A model generated the notes under the pieces. The model made no database searches. It was not told the origin of the DNA and was given only the letters and a program-made list of their open reading frames with translations. Shown piece after piece: positions 1-29,861 of a DNA stretch of 56,475 nucleotides; position 1 is the first letter of the stretch, and every line of letters starts with the position of its first letter. This stretch comes from Thermoplasmata archaeon. GTDB taxonomy: Archaea; Thermoplasmatota; Thermoplasmata; Thermoplasmatales; Thermoplasmataceae. The translations under genes were made by a program, and so were the position numbers. The stretch lies in contig JAJZZE010000046.1 in the NCBI GenBank assembly GCA_021797735.1, positions 1-56,475 on the forward strand, written 5' to 3'.

Positions 1-121
1 GAGGGAAAAAGATGGATGTAAATGTAGGAAAGGTAAATCTGAGAAAGTACGGCAAGGGATTGAAAATTAACTTCAAATTCCTCCCACTCCTGAAGAATGG
101 GAAAGTCCTGGGGGTGACCAG
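1..121 (+). mobile_element. IS200/IS605-like right-end relic abutting nadK
   Basis: The first ~66 nt match, with a single mismatch, the reverse complement of 15379-15444, and the two copies stay alignable down to the start codon of the next gene. The distal part can form a small hairpin (CCCA at about 92-95 with TGGG at about 108-111), like the subterminal hairpins of IS200/IS605 ends. The last bases (GGGGGTGA at about 110-117) act as a Shine-Dalgarno-like sequence for nadK. A short ORF (12-125) overlaps the nadK ATG, but its reading frame is not kept in the second copy, so it is probably not a gene. The left part of the element lies outside the window. The family assignment is inferred from hairpins seen in the second copy. 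Confidence 0.5.
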
Positions 122-937
122 ATGAAATTGGCAATAATTACGAGGATAAACTGTCCATCATGTATCAAGATAGCAAAGAGGGTTTTAGAATTAATACCAG
201 ATTCCTGGGAAATCATATATGAAACAAAACTTGCAAAAATCCTGAATAAAAAGGGTGTAAATTTTAGTCAGATAGATGCGGATATAATAGTGGTAATAGG
301 CGGGGACGGTACCATTTTAAAAACCGCACAGCTATCAAGGGGAAAAATACTGGGTATAAATGTAGGTGGCCTTGGATTCCTGTCAGAGGTCGAAATTGGA
401 AATATAGAGGAATCTATACATAATATGGTAAATGGCAATTACCTAACATATGACGTTATGAAACTTGAGGTTTATATAAATGATATTTTATTCGGAAAGG
501 GTATCAATGATGTGGTAGTACATACTGCAAGAATTTCAAAAATACGGAAATTCAGTGTTTATATAAATGAGAATTTTATGGAAAACACCAGTGCCGATGG
601 CGTAATCATTGCAACTCCTATAGGTTCTACATCATATTCCTACAGTGCAGGAGGACCTATACTCATACCATCACTGAAGGCCATGGTAATCTCATACATA
701 GCACCGTTTGGATCAAGGCTGAGGCCCATTGTATGCCCTGAAGACAGCAAAATAACAATTAAAATAATAGGGAAACACAGTTCACTGGTAATTGTTGATG
801 GACAGAAAAATTTAATGGTAAATAGCAATGATAAAATTGATATCAGGGTATCCAAGGAGAAATTAACGTTTATAGAGTTGAGGGATTCATTTTATGAGCG
901 CTTAAGGGGGAAACTGATAAAAGATGTGGTCAATTAG
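122..937 (+). CDS. nadK: NAD kinase
   Basis: Phosphorylates NAD to NADP in the cytoplasm, using ATP or polyphosphate. The 271-residue length is normal for archaeal NAD kinase. The diagnostic GGDG motif is at residues 60-63, followed by the glycine-rich LGINVGGLGFL stretch, and the second conserved block (TSADGVIIATPIGSTSYSYS, about 155-175) forms the NAD-binding face. The ATG at 122 gives the normal N-terminus. It is preceded by the end of an IS-like relic that supplies a purine-rich ribosome binding sequence. The stop codon overlaps the next gene by 14 bp, suggesting co-transcription with the JAMM protease. Confidence 0.95.
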   Translation: MKLAIITRINCPSCIKIAKRVLELIPDSWEIIYETKLAKILNKKGVNFSQIDADIIVVIGGDGTILKTAQLSRGKILGINVGGLGFLSEVEIGNIEESIHNMVNGNYLTYDVMKLEVYINDILFGKGINDVVVHTARISKIRKFSVYINENFMENTSADGVIIATPIGSTSYSYSAGGPILIPSLKAMVISYIAPFGSRLRPIVCPEDSKITIKIIGKHSSLVIVDGQKNLMVNSNDKIDIRVSKEKLTFIELRDSFYERLRGKLIKDVVN

Positions 938-13991: not shown

Positions 13992-15323
13992 TTATGCCGG
14001 CTTTAACTGTGATTTTATAATATTATTCGCCGTTTCAATAAATATTTTCTCCTTACCGGCAGGTATTACACCGCCTGCGGCAATATCATGACCACCGCCG
14101 GATCCACCAGCCTTTTCACAGGCTTCTTTCATAACAACTGACAGGTTTAAACCTCTGGATACAAGTGATTTTGTGCCCCTTGAGGAAATTTTAATATCCT
14201 CGTCTCCTGAATTAAAACCAATTACGGGTTTATCAGGTTTCATTGCATATAATCCTATTGCACCGGATATTGGACCTGCCATTTCTGATTCCGGGGAATA
14301 AAAATATCTTAAATACTTTTCCTCCTTTATTTCAGAATTTGCCCTGTATATGTAATCAATTAATTTTGTTTTATATATTTTTACATTATTTAGCATATCA
14401 TTTTCAACGCTTTCATCGCCCAGAAAATACTGAACGGGCACAGACTGGTTTGCGGTTCTGCTGTTTCCATCTATTATTGAATTTAATTCCTTTGATGAGA
14501 AGCCCAGATCATTGAAATATAAAATATCACTTTCCAGATATTTGATTGCGTCTATTCCAACATTATTTTCAAGCAACTTTAATGACAGGATATTGCCAAG
14601 CAGTTTATTCTCATCCGTTGTAAGTTCCATAACACTTTTATTAGCATCGATATTATTCCTACTGAGAAGGACTCCAACATCATCTGGATAACCTGTTAGA
14701 TTAATAAAAAACGGGTCTATGGAATATGTAATTCCATCCTTTATATTGCCCTCAAAATTTAATACGTGCTTTGTTGAATAAATATTATAATTATCATATA
14801 ATAATTTATTTAAGCCAGATAAACCGCCTATGTCCTGTTTATCTGCCATTACACCTGCCATAAAAAATGGAAACAGATCCCTGTTGCTTTCATCAAGAAC
14901 TAATGAGAAAATAAATGCCATTGTTGCACCGCACGCCTCCCTTGTGCCATTTATCCCGTAATCCCTGGCATTTATGTTTATACCCTTAACATCGGTTTTA
15001 TTATAAAAATGGTGATCCAGAATTATGAATTTTTCATAATCTGAAATTGACTGCGCCTGTGCTGACCCGGCATCAACTATAATGTTTAAAATATCCGGAT
15101 CCTCATCATATAATTCCCGGAATCCCTCATTGTCAAGGTTTTTTACATAACCGGAGTGATATTTGATATTTAATTTCTCCAGTGCTTTTAGTAAAATAAT
15201 TGATGAGCTTACACCATCACCATCGTAATGTGCCAGAACCCTTACGAATTTATTTTCTTTTAGAAGGTCAGAAGCCTCTGTTAAAATATTAAATAAATTT
15301 TCATTTAAAATGTCTTTTATCAT
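13992..15323 (-). CDS. RecJ-like DHH-family single-strand nuclease
   Basis: 443 residues. The DHH domain carries RVLAHYDGDGVSSS (about 28-41), VDAGS and the name motif in LDHHFYNK. DHHA1 has the glycine-rich GGSGGGHDIAAGGVI near 407-421. Archaeal relatives are single-strand exonucleases linked to replication/repair (RecJ/GAN type). In several archaea the gene sits beside rps15, as it does here, although an IS relic now separates them. The ATG at 15323 follows GGAGGT about 8 nt upstream, and that Shine-Dalgarno lies inside the relic's right end. Confidence 0.88.
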   Translation of the reverse strand: MIKDILNENLFNILTEASDLLKENKFVRVLAHYDGDGVSSSIILLKALEKLNIKYHSGYVKNLDNEGFRELYDEDPDILNIIVDAGSAQAQSISDYEKFIILDHHFYNKTDVKGININARDYGINGTREACGATMAFIFSLVLDESNRDLFPFFMAGVMADKQDIGGLSGLNKLLYDNYNIYSTKHVLNFEGNIKDGITYSIDPFFINLTGYPDDVGVLLSRNNIDANKSVMELTTDENKLLGNILSLKLLENNVGIDAIKYLESDILYFNDLGFSSKELNSIIDGNSRTANQSVPVQYFLGDESVENDMLNNVKIYKTKLIDYIYRANSEIKEEKYLRYFYSPESEMAGPISGAIGLYAMKPDKPVIGFNSGDEDIKISSRGTKSLVSRGLNLSVVMKEACEKAGGSGGGHDIAAGGVIPAGKEKIFIETANNIIKSQLKPA

Positions 15324-15770
15324 CAGGATACCTCCAGGGATCCCTATCCCTTCAGGGGTGGGTGGAATTGGATATTAAATTTCAATCCTTTGCCGTACTT
15401 TCTCAGATTTACCTTTCCTACATTTACATCCATCTTTTTCCCTCTTTTTTAACGATCGCCATTGCTGGCATTAAAGATTAGTTTAGCATATTTAAAACGG
15501 AAACCATAAGATCCCGTCCAGTCATGCCTGACTGTAGGTTCACACCGGGGTTGTTAGAGGAGTTTTTTAAACCTAACACACTGAGGATTCTCTCTCAGTT
15601 TAATACTCCATCCTGGAGCGGGTCACAGTTGCCACAGGCCTGTGGAGCACCAGTGGGTGTGTATGTATCTCTCTTTCCTAACCTCTGTTTTTCTTTCATA
15701 TTTTTAAAGCCCCCTAATCAACTCTTTCGTTGCCCTCACGGAACAAGCCCACGGCTTTAGTCGTGGGTAG
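15324..15770 (-). mobile_element. IS200/IS605-like deletion relic between rps15 and recJ
   Basis: On the minus strand the element begins with a hairpin (15748-15767, CCCACG stem with a loop containing ACTAAAG), typical of IS200/IS605 ends. It continues through a decayed frame containing PQACGNCDPLQDG, like the Cys-bearing tail near the C-terminus of archaeal TnpB. It ends with a ~120-nt right end repeated at 1-121 and a second hairpin (CCCT/AGGG near 15346-15358). No transposase is left, so it cannot move by itself. It separates rps15 from recJ: one end reaches into the rps15 stop codon and the other supplies the recJ ribosome binding site. No other gene is visible in this stretch. Confidence 0.6.
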
Positions 15771-16209
15771 TCGACAGAACTCTATTTAGTGACCAGTCAT
15801 TTGATAAACGACCTGTACGCTTATAGTATCTTACCAGTCTCAGGATTTTTGCCATTATTAATTCTTTTCCCCTTTCATTGCTGATATCCTTTTTATTTAA
15901 AAGGAGATGCTTTGATACATTTTTATACCTCTTTATGAGGAACTGCAAATCCTCAGGTACCTCATCCTTTACACCATTTTCTTCCAGTACCTTTGTCATC
16001 TTTTCATGTAATACAGGCCTAACTCCTGGAACTGTATACTGGTCTCTCAGTTTAATACCTATCATTGAGGTTGACATTCCATCCTTCTTTAACTTTACTA
16101 CCTCTTCCTTTATCTCATCATCTGAAAGCTGGATCCATGAAGGTCTCTCAGCCATTGAAATTCTTCTTGATCCGGATTTTCCTCTCTTACGTGTATGCAT
16201 TCGTGCCAT
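15757..16209 (-). CDS. rps15: 30S ribosomal protein S15 with element-derived C-terminus
   Basis: 150 residues, archaeal/eukaryotic uS15 type (S13e). The N-terminus [16 protein letters not shown] is typical, followed by [28 protein letters not shown] and the C-terminal [19 protein letters not shown]. It binds 16S rRNA in the small subunit. The last residues (VLSTTHD) and the TAA stop are encoded by the left-end hairpin of the IS200/IS605-like relic. The native stop was therefore lost or shifted, and translation ends a few codons into the element. The core fold is complete, so the protein should work. Confidence 0.95.
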
Positions 16210-23675: not shown

Positions 23676-26600
23676 TTACCTCTTTCCCCTAGACCTTGCT
23701 GAAGACCCTATTAATCCTATTAATATAGCACCAGCTATTATGCCTATTCCTATGTATATTGTCATTACAGGATTTGCTGTGTAATCATTAACTATACTAG
23801 TGCCGGATGAACCTGTGCCTACCGATGCACTCTGTATTTCCGGTGTTATTGTTACATTATGCTGTGTACCGTTATAATATGAATGGAAGTCTATTAAATC
23901 ACTGCTACTCAATTTAGCCGATGATATATCATACGCATAAACATATACCGTTGCCTTCTGACCGTATGTTAATGTAACATTATTAGCCATTTTTCCATTG
24001 TAAACAGTATATGTACCTATACGGAATACCTTGCTTAATGATGCGTTATTTGTTACATTGAAAGTAACTGTTATGTTTGTATTGCCGGTATTTTCAATTG
24101 TTACCGGAAGCATATTTAATGTACCGTTAGCTATTGCATATTCCTTTATGCTGGTATTGCCAGAATTTACAGTATAATTGTATAATTTACTAACATTAAC
24201 CGTTATATTGCCTATAGTTTTATTTTCTAATGTATTGTTTAATTTTATGGGTACACTGTTATTGCCTGCAGGAGCGTTGGGTACTGTTATATTAACGTAC
24301 ACTGTGGTGTTTTTACCCGGTGTTAAATGGAAGTCTTCCTTATTAAATACCATTTTCCATGCAGAATTGCCCGAAGAAAGATTTAATGTGTTGTTTGTAT
24401 TGCCATTGTTTGTTAATACAAACTTTTTTTCAACTGTCTGGCAAACCTTTGGGTCAACGGATGTTGAATTTATTGTATAGCCGAACACATTAACCTTCTT
24501 AAGGTGTAAATTAATGTATTCAGTACCGCTTATGTATTTTGTTACTGTATTACTGTATGTTATATCCTTATTATATGTAGTGTTATATTTAACCTTGCTT
24601 GATTCAAATTTAAACGTGTTTTCAGGCAGTAATACTTTCTGCATTGATGAGTTTACGATTAATTCAGATGGACCTGTAATTTTAACATTATTGCTTATTG
24701 GTTTATTGTTATAATATACGTAAAGATGTGCATAGTGTGCATTTGTAAGTGTTATATTATCCGTAACGTTTGTGAATGGTTTTAACGTTATATTATTCAT
24801 ATAGGCATATTTATCATCTGTGCTTGTTATATATATGCCATATGTATGGGCGTTTAATGATACGTTATAATAACCCTTGCTGTTTGTTCTTAGCGTTTTT
24901 ATTATAGTTCCATTGCTTATTATATGTACATATGCATAGCTGGCTGGAGAGCCATTCTGTGTTACATAACCACTCATATAATCCTCTACCCTGTGTAGGG
25001 CCAGCGTTACATTTATATTTCTATTGCCGGTCAGGTTTGTTTTGCTTGATCCATAATATTTATAAGCACCGGTTGAGTTTGAATATTTACCCGAAGTTGT
25101 TATGGTTATATTGCTCTTATCCGCAGGTAATACTATGCTTATATTTTTACCTGTGAAATTCAGCGATAAACCATTGTAATCTATAATATATGGTGTTGAT
25201 ACGTTTAATGAATTTGTTATATTTAAATCATAACCTGATTTATAAACCGGTGTGTATGTTGTATTTTTGTTTATATACATTGCTGTAACATTTGCAGTTG
25301 TTCCGTTGTATGAATACACCGTATAGTTGCCAGCAGGTAAATGATTTGGATTATATCTTATACCGTTTTTGAATACGTATGTTGTATAATTCTTACTGTT
25401 TGTTAATGAGAAATTAAGGTATGTATTTTTGTCTATTGTCCTGCTTTTCATTATTGCTGTTGTGCCTGTGATTTCAGGTGTAATATATGCGTCTTTACTG
25501 CTGAATGATGTGTAATATATACCGGGAGCTATACTGTGTGTTACAGTGCCATCGGTAAAGGTGAGATTGTATGTATTGTCAGGACCGATAAGATGTATCG
25601 TTCCATTAAAGTTCAGTAATTTTGAATTGTTATAAAGGTTAAATGTAGTACTGTATGTATTCTGGTATGCCGTGTATGATAATGATGTTGAGTTTGTTAT
25701 TTTTACCATTGTACCGTGGTAAAATACCGACTGAACACTAATATAACTCTTATTTACAGCAGGATAACTTACTATTGCCTGGCTATTTTTTAACTGGGCA
25801 AAGAAGAACGGGAAGCCGTGATAGTATACAGTAGCTATCCCCTCCATTACCTTCTGATTTACATTGTTATTGGATGATGCAAGTACAGTTGTATTATATG
25901 GTATATTTAGATTCATGTTAAGATATCTCGTGGAACTTACATTAAGGTAATTAAATGATGCAAGCCTTGCACCGGTATATTTACCTAAACCTGCTATTGT
26001 ATACTGCCCTTCAGGCAAATATACTGTGTGGCTTTTATCCGTATTATTGAAACTGTACTGCAATCTGATATTATTTGATAATACCTCATAAAATCCTGTG
26101 TAATTATTATGATTTCTTATATATGAACTAATATGTACCGGTATGGCCTTTGAATAGGCAATATTCAGTGAAGTGTTGCCCGTAACATTGATTGTCCTTA
26201 TAAATACGCCTGTACCATTGGTAGAATATACCGTATACATTCCATATGGAAGGCTTGTATTATACATTCCATTAACAGGTGTAACGTTTAATGATTCCGA
26301 ACTGATACCGTTGAAATACAGTGTTACAGTGTTCGTTGCCTTACCATAAAGCCTGGCGGAAAGTTCAGGCTGAATATTTGCCGAAACTGGTGACCCCCAG
26401 CCGGTTACGGTTTCATAACCCTTATTTTCTGTATTGTTTGATTTTACCTTTATGGTATAGTTGCCCGGTATAACACCGAAACTTACAACACCCTTTGAAT
26501 TTGTTATTCCACTTACACTGTAATCAGTGGTGTTCGCAGTAACATGATAACCCGAGAGCGGTTTTCCATTGGTGTTTACATTTACAGTAAGATTGTCCAT

Positions 26601-29600
26601 ACTTATATTAATATTCTTTGTTGTGTTTTTACCAAGGGACGGTGAAACTGTACCCACGTCTGTGTAGTTTAAATTGCCTGATGTTACACTTATCTGGTAT
26701 GTATACGGAGCTATATCTCTTATGGAATAATTACCGTTAATTATTTTTGCTGTATACACTGCATTATGGGTTTTATTATATAGTGTAACATTGCCGTTCT
26801 CTATAGTCCTGCTTGATGTTAAATTTAATAACTTAACATGTCCTGATACCTTATTTTTCTGAACTCTTTCATTTACCGTTACATTATAGTTTGAAGCCCT
26901 GTTTGCCTCGCCACTGGATATTGTGACATTTTTTCTGGCTATAACCTTGCCGGTCATGTTTAATGCGCCTACACTACCGGTACTGAACGTTATGGTATCA
27001 TTTCCCGGTAAGCCGGTAAGATGGTAATAACCGGTTGAGTTTGTTGTTGCGACCTGATGTGAAATACCATACTGGTCTGTAAGTGTTACGTGTGCACCGG
27101 GTATGGCTTTTCCATCGGATGATGTTAACCTTCCTGTTATATTGGCACCTGGATAATACTGTATTATAGGGTCTTCACTCTGAATTACCTGGGAGCTTAA
27201 TGGCAGTAGTATCTCTGTTCCCTTATTCTCCTGCTGATATTTATATGCAGTCTGTATAGGTATAAATTTGAAATACTTTTCAAGGCTTGGGTTCTTTTGT
27301 ATCTGGGTTTGATTGTATGGATTATATAATGAACTGTAATATGATAGTTCAAAGTGGCTCATATTTAATGCCGGCATAGGAGTCATATCTGTCGTGCCGT
27401 AGGATATGCCTGGTATGCCCGTTGTTTGCCCAACATCCTGGGGTGTATAACCAATTACAGACCTGTATATGGTTGTATTGTAAAATGCCGGCGAATATAA
27501 TATTCTGTAGCCGGTTATGGTTGCACTTGCAGGTGTTTGATTTAATGGAAATATGCCGGTACTTGTCTGTGCAAATACATCATAGTAGTTTGTTGGAACC
27601 GTTTCACCGTCGTGGGTGTACGATTTTGTATCGGTTAAATATGCAGGAGCATAAAATATTCCCGGATTTGTACCAGAAAATGGGAATAACCCATGGTCTG
27701 TCTGTATATATGATATCTGTGAACCTGTTGCCTTTTCAAGGGCTGAATATGCATTTGTTATTATGCTCATGGAATATTTTGATGATAACTGTCCCATTAC
27801 CAGTGCATGGTATGCATTTCCTGATGATGTTATGTTTACCTGATGGCTTCCGTATGCGCTTGTGTTTAATAGATGGTCGTAACTGTTATGTAAGGGACTT
27901 TTGTAAATGGTTTCTATTATATTTGTTTCATTTGATCCGAAATATTTATCCATAACCTGTGTAACGCTGGTATTGAAATGGCCATTTGAATAGGCACCGG
28001 GAGTCTGCAATACCCTGGATATGAATAATGTTACTATCTGGCTTTCATTCTGGGCTAACAGAATCTGACCCGCAGTTGTATAACCCTGCTGGAAATCATC
28101 TGCCACTGTTGGATGCTTACCCTGTTGAAGTTCCTGGAATCCATAATCCCACCACGATACATACGCAGGCCTGTGAGATAGGGATTCATTGGTGTTCTGT
28201 GTTGCAAGCCACTGGAATGACTGGGATAATGGCTGTGATTTATTGTCAAGCAGTAGTCCGTAGTTGCCCAGATATGATGATGTTGATGAACTGTTAAGGT
28301 GCAGTGGAGATAAGGTAGAATTTATCTGATTATTATAATATGCTGCATTGTTTTCCGGTACCCCTGCGGATACAGATCCCATACCTGAGGGTATAATCAA
28401 TGCAAGTATAACTATTATGGCGAATACTGCCTGGATCCAGTTTATATTGCCCTTTATTGACCTTTTAATTGTGGAATGGCTTACTCTTTTCTTCACGTCT
28501 TTTGTTTTCAATAAATCTGCAAAGTAAACTATTAATCCACCACCAAGTATTGCATATGCGGGTGCTGCAGTTACATTAAACCTTGCAGCCTCAAAACTCA
28601 TGAATACAGAAAATATAGAAAATATCAGTACAAGTAATAATGCCTCGCTCTTAACCTTCAGGAATCTATATACTATGTACGGTACACCTGCAACACCAAG
28701 AAGGAATAAACCCGGACCGAACCCAGATATATATGATCCAAGTACTGGAGCCGCTGCTTCTGCTATTGTTGAATATAACCTTGATTTAACAAAGTATCCA
28801 TCTCCTGTAATTAATTCCCTCAGTATTGCCGGATTTGTTTTGCTTAATACGAATAGGGAAACGGTACTTACAATAATTAATGCCGGTATAGTCATTATCC
28901 ATGGTTTTCTTGCAATGATATTTATTAATATTCCGAAGCCTATTATTAATAAGCCCATAGCCAGTGGTGGAAAATACCAGGGCATAAGCATTTTTGTTAC
29001 ATAATAATAATAGTAACCGAACGGGAATGAAAATGCTATAAATATCGTTATCAGATAGGTTAAATGACCGGTTGGTTTTCTTGTAAACAGGTTGTACAAT
29101 AACTGTACGGCAACATATATTAATATTATAACCTCTATATACGGGAATCCCTGCCATATAACAATCAGGCCACCCAGGGATACTGCGGCCATTAAGGCGT
29201 AAATTGTTGATATTTTATTTTCCCTGTAGAAGTTAATTATTGAGCTATAATATGATCTATAATCCGTTAATTTCTTTATTATAATGCTTTTATTTGATGT
29301 TATTATAGCCTTTTCAAAGAAATATATGGCAAGAAAAGCGAATATTAACTCAGGTGTATGTGCCCTCCCATCCGATAATATACCGGATGTTAGATTGCCT
29401 GGCATTATTGCATAAAATAATGCGGCTAACATTCCTGCCTTTTTGCCGAATATTTCCTTTGTTATCAGGTATACAGGTATTATTAATAATGCACCGTAAA
29501 ATGCATCTGATTCCATAAATGCATAGTATGCTGCCTGGTGTAAGCCTAATATTGGTGAGAGCAGGTATGAAACAAATACTATGCTCCACTGGTAAAATGG

Positions 29601-29861
29601 TGGCCTTAAGTTACTCGTACCTATAGGATATGCCAGACCATTGGTATATATTAACTGGCTGTGGTGACTCAGTATATACTGAACGATATAATAATTAAAA
29701 TACGGGTCACTACCTCCTGAAACGTTTAGATATGAGTCTTTAAATGCTTCCGACCATACAAAAAAATTGGCAAGGAACATGTATAGTGCCAATAGTATTA
29801 GAATTACTGGGAACTCAGGGTATCTATTTATTTTCTCTTTAATGCTATCTGTAATACTCAT
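23676..29861 (-). CDS. aglB: Oligosaccharyltransferase AglB (STT3) with a very long extracytoplasmic tail
   Basis: 2061 residues; other archaeal AglB proteins are mostly about 700-1000. A GT-C transmembrane domain (about 1-480, ~13 segments) carries the external-loop D52 in GGSDPYFNYY and an acidic pair in DGRAHTPE. The catalytic-domain WWDYG motif is at residues 570-574. From about 915 on, a ~1000-residue region holds repeated carboxypeptidase-regulatory/PEGA-like beta-sandwiches (for example NSTGYYHLTG and NSKGYYNVSL), dense N-x-S/T sequons and a NEW3-like domain. A final membrane segment (about 2030-2050) ends the chain. It transfers lipid-linked glycans onto Asn of secreted proteins. The tail may be self-glycosylated. 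The 276-residue surface protein gene follows by 5 bp. Confidence 0.93.
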   Translation of the reverse strand: MSITDSIKEKINRYPEFPVILILLALYMFLANFFVWSEAFKDSYLNVSGGSDPYFNYYIVQYILSHHSQLIYTNGLAYPIGTSNLRPPFYQWSIVFVSYLLSPILGLHQAAYYAFMESDAFYGALLIIPVYLITKEIFGKKAGMLAALFYAIMPGNLTSGILSDGRAHTPELIFAFLAIYFFEKAIITSNKSIIIKKLTDYRSYYSSIINFYRENKISTIYALMAAVSLGGLIVIWQGFPYIEVIILIYVAVQLLYNLFTRKPTGHLTYLITIFIAFSFPFGYYYYYVTKMLMPWYFPPLAMGLLIIGFGILINIIARKPWIMTIPALIIVSTVSLFVLSKTNPAILRELITGDGYFVKSRLYSTIAEAAAPVLGSYISGFGPGLFLLGVAGVPYIVYRFLKVKSEALLLVLIFSIFSVFMSFEAARFNVTAAPAYAILGGGLIVYFADLLKTKDVKKRVSHSTIKRSIKGNINWIQAVFAIIVILALIIPSGMGSVSAGVPENNAAYYNNQINSTLSPLHLNSSSTSSYLGNYGLLLDNKSQPLSQSFQWLATQNTNESLSHRPAYVSWWDYGFQELQQGKHPTVADDFQQGYTTAGQILLAQNESQIVTLFISRVLQTPGAYSNGHFNTSVTQVMDKYFGSNETNIIETIYKSPLHNSYDHLLNTSAYGSHQVNITSSGNAYHALVMGQLSSKYSMSIITNAYSALEKATGSQISYIQTDHGLFPFSGTNPGIFYAPAYLTDTKSYTHDGETVPTNYYDVFAQTSTGIFPLNQTPASATITGYRILYSPAFYNTTIYRSVIGYTPQDVGQTTGIPGISYGTTDMTPMPALNMSHFELSYYSSLYNPYNQTQIQKNPSLEKYFKFIPIQTAYKYQQENKGTEILLPLSSQVIQSEDPIIQYYPGANITGRLTSSDGKAIPGAHVTLTDQYGISHQVATTNSTGYYHLTGLPGNDTITFSTGSVGALNMTGKVIARKNVTISSGEANRASNYNVTVNERVQKNKVSGHVKLLNLTSSRTIENGNVTLYNKTHNAVYTAKIINGNYSIRDIAPYTYQISVTSGNLNYTDVGTVSPSLGKNTTKNINISMDNLTVNVNTNGKPLSGYHVTANTTDYSVSGITNSKGVVSFGVIPGNYTIKVKSNNTENKGYETVTGWGSPVSANIQPELSARLYGKATNTVTLYFNGISSESLNVTPVNGMYNTSLPYGMYTVYSTNGTGVFIRTINVTGNTSLNIAYSKAIPVHISSYIRNHNNYTGFYEVLSNNIRLQYSFNNTDKSHTVYLPEGQYTIAGLGKYTGARLASFNYLNVSSTRYLNMNLNIPYNTTVLASSNNNVNQKVMEGIATVYYHGFPFFFAQLKNSQAIVSYPAVNKSYISVQSVFYHGTMVKITNSTSLSYTAYQNTYSTTFNLYNNSKLLNFNGTIHLIGPDNTYNLTFTDGTVTHSIAPGIYYTSFSSKDAYITPEITGTTAIMKSRTIDKNTYLNFSLTNSKNYTTYVFKNGIRYNPNHLPAGNYTVYSYNGTTANVTAMYINKNTTYTPVYKSGYDLNITNSLNVSTPYIIDYNGLSLNFTGKNISIVLPADKSNITITTSGKYSNSTGAYKYYGSSKTNLTGNRNINVTLALHRVEDYMSGYVTQNGSPASYAYVHIISNGTIIKTLRTNSKGYYNVSLNAHTYGIYITSTDDKYAYMNNITLKPFTNVTDNITLTNAHYAHLYVYYNNKPISNNVKITGPSELIVNSSMQKVLLPENTFKFESSKVKYNTTYNKDITYSNTVTKYISGTEYINLHLKKVNVFGYTINSTSVDPKVCQTVEKKFVLTNNGNTNNTLNLSSGNSAWKMVFNKEDFHLTPGKNTTVYVNITVPNAPAGNNSVPIKLNNTLENKTIGNITVNVSKLYNYTVNSGNTSIKEYAIANGTLNMLPVTIENTGNTNITVTFNVTNNASLSKVFRIGTYTVYNGKMANNVTLTYGQKATVYVYAYDISSAKLSSSDLIDFHSYYNGTQHNVTITPEIQSASVGTGSSGTSIVNDYTANPVMTIYIGIGIIAGAILIGLIGSSARSRGKR

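Follow-up and report, generated by a model that had tools for sequence, protein, structure and literature searches.

Why should two unrelated housekeeping genes of an archaeon begin behind the same sequence? In the stretch of DNA analysed here (the window: all 56,475 nt of contig JAJZZE010000046.1 from a Thermoplasmata archaeon, assembly GCA_021797735.1), the NAD kinase gene nadK and a gene for a RecJ-like DHH phosphoesterase, recJ, each follow a copy of one short repeat that runs straight into the start codon. A preliminary description had seen in this repeat an IS200/IS605-type end that replaced native leaders twice, or else a conserved regulatory leader. By sequence comparison, each leader is the right end of a HEARO/IscB element (Rfam RF02033; IS200/IS605 superfamily). 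Such elements insert immediately 5' of the tetranucleotide RTGA, in this family mostly where RTGA opens a host gene. Taken as a whole, elements that end at RTGA start codons and supply Shine-Dalgarno (SD) and stop signals, with putative promoter capture and translational coupling, are in our judgement very probably the best explanation of the locus.

Identity of the shared leader

The repeat is real. Positions 1–66 match 15379–15444 (reverse strand) with two mismatches (at 56 and 66), the single mismatch given earlier applying only to 1–65, and over 1–95 the right end before nadK shares 93% identity with the recJ copy (E = 8.6e-35). As first described, both copies run directly into start codons and carry an SD-like motif within the element end; Pfam confirmed the two gene products. 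Searching with the recJ insert (15324–15800) retrieved one full-length copy in the same genome (named G000), at C37:77785–79226, whose segment 79111–79206 is 84% identical to the nadK right end. This copy consists of a HEARO omegaRNA directly upstream of iscB (118 bits against a gathering score of 83, model 1–211 complete; L044 1785–2023), a 456-aa IscB open reading frame (ORF), and finally the repeat known from the window. The protein carries RRXRR/RuvC (PF14239, 1.3e-38) and HNH (PF14279, 4.3e-12) domains, and the TGA stop of its gene is part of the ATGA that opens hisS. Of iscB, the two copies in the window retain mere remnants, the recJ copy having an internal deletion with both element ends kept. 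The earlier assignment was thus right about a right end and about an insertion, and too narrow for an element that is specifically HEARO/IscB.

Table 1. Features of the two element copies and adjoining genes (window positions; a slash marks the insertion point)
Feature	Position	Strand	Evidence
HEARO/IscB element right (3') end	1..121	+	cut by contig edge; abuts nadK ATGA start
iscB 3' coding-end remnant (MDVNVGKVNLRKYGKGLKINFKFLPLLKNGKVLGVTR, then stop)	12..125	+	tblastn to IscB residues 418–451, 74% identity
Shine-Dalgarno-like GGGGGTGA within element end	110..117	+	sequence
ATGA: target site and putative target-adjacent motif (TAM), nadK start codon, iscB-remnant stop	122..125	+	empty site G063 'atcggtgtatgtt/ATGAAATTAGC'
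nadK (NAD kinase)	122..937	+	Pfam PF20143 E 9.9e-34, PF01513
recJ-like DHH phosphoesterase	13992..15323	-	Pfam PF01368 E 2.3e-10
ATGA: target and putative TAM, recJ start codon	15320..15323	-	rpsO stop/recJ start overlap in empty site
Internally deleted HEARO/IscB element, 452 nt, between rpsO and recJ	15324..15775	-	empty site G063 'aatagagttct/ATGATAAAAGATATTC'
Shine-Dalgarno-like GGAGGT in right end, 6 nt before recJ ATG	15330..15335	-	sequence
omegaRNA (HEARO) 5' end of element	15661..15774	-	covariance model R1, 130.8 bits, E 7.9e-26
In-frame tail on ribosomal protein S15 from element (..NRVL/STTHD, then stop)	15757..15774	-	TAA at 15757–15759

A TnpB/IS605 reading of the rpsO–recJ insert, suggested by a hairpin resembling a TnpB end, is ruled out, since the full copy is an IscB with an upstream omegaRNA. 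The elements share with IS200/IS605 transposons carrying TnpB the lack of target duplication and a fixed one-sided tetranucleotide target, and perhaps also subterminal hairpins and the use of a Y1 transposase (here, if at all, in trans), but TnpB is another protein whose guide lies at the omegaRNA 3' end. In DNA folding, the left-end hairpin scored z = -2.1 against shuffles; stems are visible in the right ends, which folded no better than shuffles. No Y1 TnpA was seen in the full C37 copy. Matches to PF01797 (Y1) occur elsewhere, in one gene of G000 and nine times in the relative G065, so that mobilisation in trans is possible; the sole G000 gene (IS200-type, C15:18268–18618) is a candidate mobiliser.

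In the C37 IscB (L044 1861–3231), the RuvC-I motif reads 'GIGPGYRHMG' with GIG in place of GID, and the arginine-rich bridge helix is shortened, so the nuclease is probably dead; the 456-codon frame is nonetheless open up to the hisS start. The G065 IscB (PF14239, 3.3e-66) retains GIDPGYKHIGF. Several G065 copies (L136, L138, L144, L095 and L096) are internally deleted, and in L136 and L144 a long frame (about 209–219 codons) still runs open to the host ATGA.

Window base 1 is the contig start, which raises the suspicion that 1–127 is an assembly artefact and does not truly precede nadK. In its favour, exactly these 127 nt recur on contig C4, there before nuoB, and C40 and C22, each of which opens with the left half of one of the two elements, likewise have exactly 127 nt in common. 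The shared length is the overlap that 127-mer assembly leaves at a repeat; the assembly thus broke at two near-identical copies, to be read as C40–element–C30 (nadK) and C22 (nuoA)–element–C4 (nuoB). Of the two flanks, that on C40 agrees with the empty nadK site in the relative G063 and that on C22 with the sequence on the nuoA side of the G065 element. In G065 itself, the element before nadK is unbroken, and its right end is 97.5% identical. A chimera is ruled out by the G065 copy and the C40 flank, leaving an artefact very improbable. The right end before nuoB in G000 (C4:1–127, L043) is identical to the nadK copy, yet shares just 73% identity with its G065 counterpart at nuoB (L137), which suggests gene conversion or a second insertion at that site.

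Insertion at host start codons

The insertion point was defined by five comparisons of filled and empty sites (recJ, nuoB, hisS, nadK and ileS) with congeners, among them G063 and G065. At recJ, the empty junction of G063, 'aatagagttct/ATGATAAAAG', corresponds to 'AATAGAGTTCT/GTCGACTACCC...GGAGGTATCCTG/ATGATAAAAG' in G000, and G065 is filled likewise. Insertion is precise, immediately 5' of ATGA and without target duplication, and nearly all right ends are followed by RTGA, nearly always ATGA. As read from these junctions, the element inserts on one strand only, which places ATGA directly after its right end and points iscB the same way as the gene downstream.

The same comparisons bear on the other reading first offered, a native attenuator or riboswitch common to housekeeping genes. 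The occurrence of one sequence upstream of several such genes in two species would fit it, but the unit encodes IscB and omegaRNA, and all five genes have element-free orthologous junctions within the genus; the right ends are therefore not ancestral leaders. The hisS site is filled in G000 and empty in G065, which indicates either a recent insertion or its loss from G065. With the empty sites ruling it out, a native leader retains next to no probability, less even than an assembly artefact. Both G000 and G065 carry the element at other sites (recJ, nadK, nuoB, ileS, glgE, a helix-turn-helix gene, a PmbA/TldD-like gene and more), so the ends persisted through speciation after iscB had decayed; decayed copies without iscB are, on this comparative evidence, retained as gene leaders across two species. 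At ileS, a conserved AT-rich stretch that precedes the gene remains upstream of the element and is probably the native promoter. What is apparently one gene (MKDEMDILWD/MKDKMELLWD) has its start occupied in G000 and G065 and, by another right-end subtype, in G062 (L191 against L161/L201); the same start codon may have been hit twice, independently.

To place the window copies in context, 77 genomes of the family were surveyed with covariance model R1, built on the element 5' end. Twelve genomes carry 78 such ends, and these varied loci together with the five empty sites bear out the mobile origin proposed at the outset. Once the R1 loci had been fetched, ends were paired with a right-end profile; it is mildly biased, having been built with ATGA and two hand-picked ends, and the ORF test is independent of it. 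A site was counted as a start codon when the right end abutted an RTGA at which an ORF of 100 aa or more begins, which held at 39 of the 46 unique evaluable sites. By comparison, 11% of all ATGA in the window open such an ORF (binomial p 9e-31), as do 25% (20/81) of the tolerated ATGA, namely those at gene starts or in intergenic DNA where no gene is broken (p 1.6e-17). Adding rpoK (54 aa, Pfam-confirmed) and one 78-aa ORF brings the number of start-codon sites to 41. Replacement of leaders is hence systematic in the family, rather than the two accidents first supposed, because the target and putative TAM is ATGA.

The genes downstream include RNA polymerase subunits (rpoB-like), polB, rad50 (Rad50-like), gatE (GatE), the IleS-, LeuS- and HisS-type synthetase genes ileS, leuS and hisS, CCA transferase, GrpE, GlgE and thiolase. 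Many have Pfam domains that begin near residue 1, showing that the genes are real, and the sites are often ATGA stop/start overlaps within operons. Beyond the archaea, HEARO right ends of different sequence in two genomes of the cyanobacterium Moorena close with '..CAAGGAGGTAGAAAG/ATGA' or '/ATGG' at the starts of genes for LptF/G, glutaredoxin, peroxidase, aminotransferase and others, and hold AAGGAGGT at a spacing similar to that of the archaeal SD. A Deinococcus plasmid copy is arranged parA–iscB–/ATGA–parB, and plasmid copies from Polaromonas (at a DUF4400 gene), Nostoc and Anabaena also lie at gene starts.

Translation signals at the element ends

Both ends of the element carry signals that could serve the genes flanking them. 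An SD-like motif (a match of at least 4 nt) was found in 38 of 47 right ends, 6–8 nt before the host ATG, against 10 of the 49 window genes that start with ATG and a background of 8%; the element thus provides an SD where most genes have none of their own. Among 18 archaeal right ends, the invariant and near-invariant columns include a GG.GG core and the terminal GATGA, and most others vary. Furthermore, where copies of the main subgroup are intact, iscB ends on the codon AG/A (CG/A in the hisS copy of G000) and the stop TGA lies inside the target. The iscB gene therefore has no stop of its own and overlaps the host gene by 1 nt. The remnant before nadK keeps this arrangement, the target ATGA giving the last codon AGA its final A and the entire TGA stop.

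At sites where ATGA is a stop/start overlap, insertion removes the stop of the upstream gene, and the element end reads xxG TCA ACT ACC CAC GAC TAA, that is, 'STTHD' and a stop. Both rpsO (3' end at 15757–15780) and nuoA (L137) lost their stop codons through insertion and received this in-frame tail. Across 64 element ends, 33 have a stop within 6 codons in the ATGA-overlap frame, and the two remaining frames give 13 and 12. An upstream ORF of at least 60 codons runs into 29 elements, 14 times in the ATGA-overlap frame, and 10 of these 14 stop after five added codons. Apart from these elements, the window contains an unusually long ORF of 2061 aa (23676–29861, reverse strand).

The elements resemble described HEARO/IscB elements (the 'ISC' group) in the 5' omegaRNA with a guide from the upstream flank, the RRXRR/RuvC and HNH iscB, and the right end at ATGA; the original HEARO description of Weinberg (2009) reportedly recorded ATGA or GTGA at the insertion site. 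They differ in the coincidence with start codons, the right-end SD, the borrowed iscB stop and the supply of a stop upstream, none of which was found described in the literature searched, where few subscription papers were covered. The related OMEGA nickase IsrB, which unlike the proteins here has no HNH domain, has an NTGA-type TAM, established experimentally (PMC9581776).

Proposed mechanism, rival explanation and significance

Element identity, insertion point, orientation, SD motif, stop overlaps and retention are all read directly from the DNA, and the following mechanism would connect them. If the target doubles as the TAM (RTGA), insertion would land between the start codon and whatever precedes it, a host promoter or a gene. 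From its place upstream, the host promoter may then transcribe guide, omegaRNA, iscB and host gene as a single RNA, and a 5'-guided omegaRNA would need such upstream transcription. The right-end SD, with or without termination–reinitiation coupling at the stop/start overlap, would keep the host gene translated; the element 5' end gives an interrupted upstream ORF a stop. Insertion upstream of essential genes may thereby be both tolerable and self-expressing. A bolder version, which we offer tentatively and hold at slightly under even chances, is a transposon that targets start codons, with RTGA steering, promoter capture, a portable ribosome-binding site with stop/start coupling, essential leaders as a safe harbour and domestication of decayed copies.

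The main rival is survivorship without adaptation, in which elements insert at any ATGA, the copies at start codons are what purifying selection and genome compaction have left, and GGAGG is incidental to the structure of the transposon end. Insertions in coding sequence are certainly removed, and G-rich 3' ends also pair in terminal DNA hairpins; yet tolerated sites alone would give 25% starts, a figure obtained with simple ORF calls in a single 56-kb window, against the 39 of 46 seen. The GG.GG core and ATGA are also among the few nearly or fully invariant columns of the archaeal right ends, and the Moorena ends bear AAGGAGGT at similar spacing in a different sequence context. We regard survivorship alone as rather unlikely.

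Several observations weigh against the reading that we prefer, namely RTGA-directed elements equipped to keep their host genes expressed, and some of them favour its rival. Nine of the 47 right ends have no 4-nt SD match, some SDs are weak and the Polaromonas copy has none; moreover, the exact 16S 3'-end pattern had no match in the G000 assembly, so that the anti-SD is a putative one. Some copies have no downstream gene, the plasmid copies of Pontibacillus, Methylobacter, Allochromatium and Oscillatoria do not lie at gene starts, and the Thermoplasmatota copies of another family (f35) mostly show no start-codon association. Other IscBs use NTAAA TAMs (PMC13180657).

Collectively, these loci show a transposon that lands at the starts of aminoacyl-tRNA synthetase, polymerase and nuo operon genes and brings a putative new translation start signal with it. 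IscB is the ancestor of Cas9, and the arrangement offers a possible reason for an ATGA-type TAM in Cas9's ancestors and a promoter source for 5'-guide omegaRNAs. It also makes a concrete, testable prediction on which sites keep IscB elements and on the evolution of TAM choice ahead of protospacer-adjacent motifs. In these archaea, gene starts, 5' leaders and short C-terminal tails, such as STTHD on S15, can be transposon-derived.
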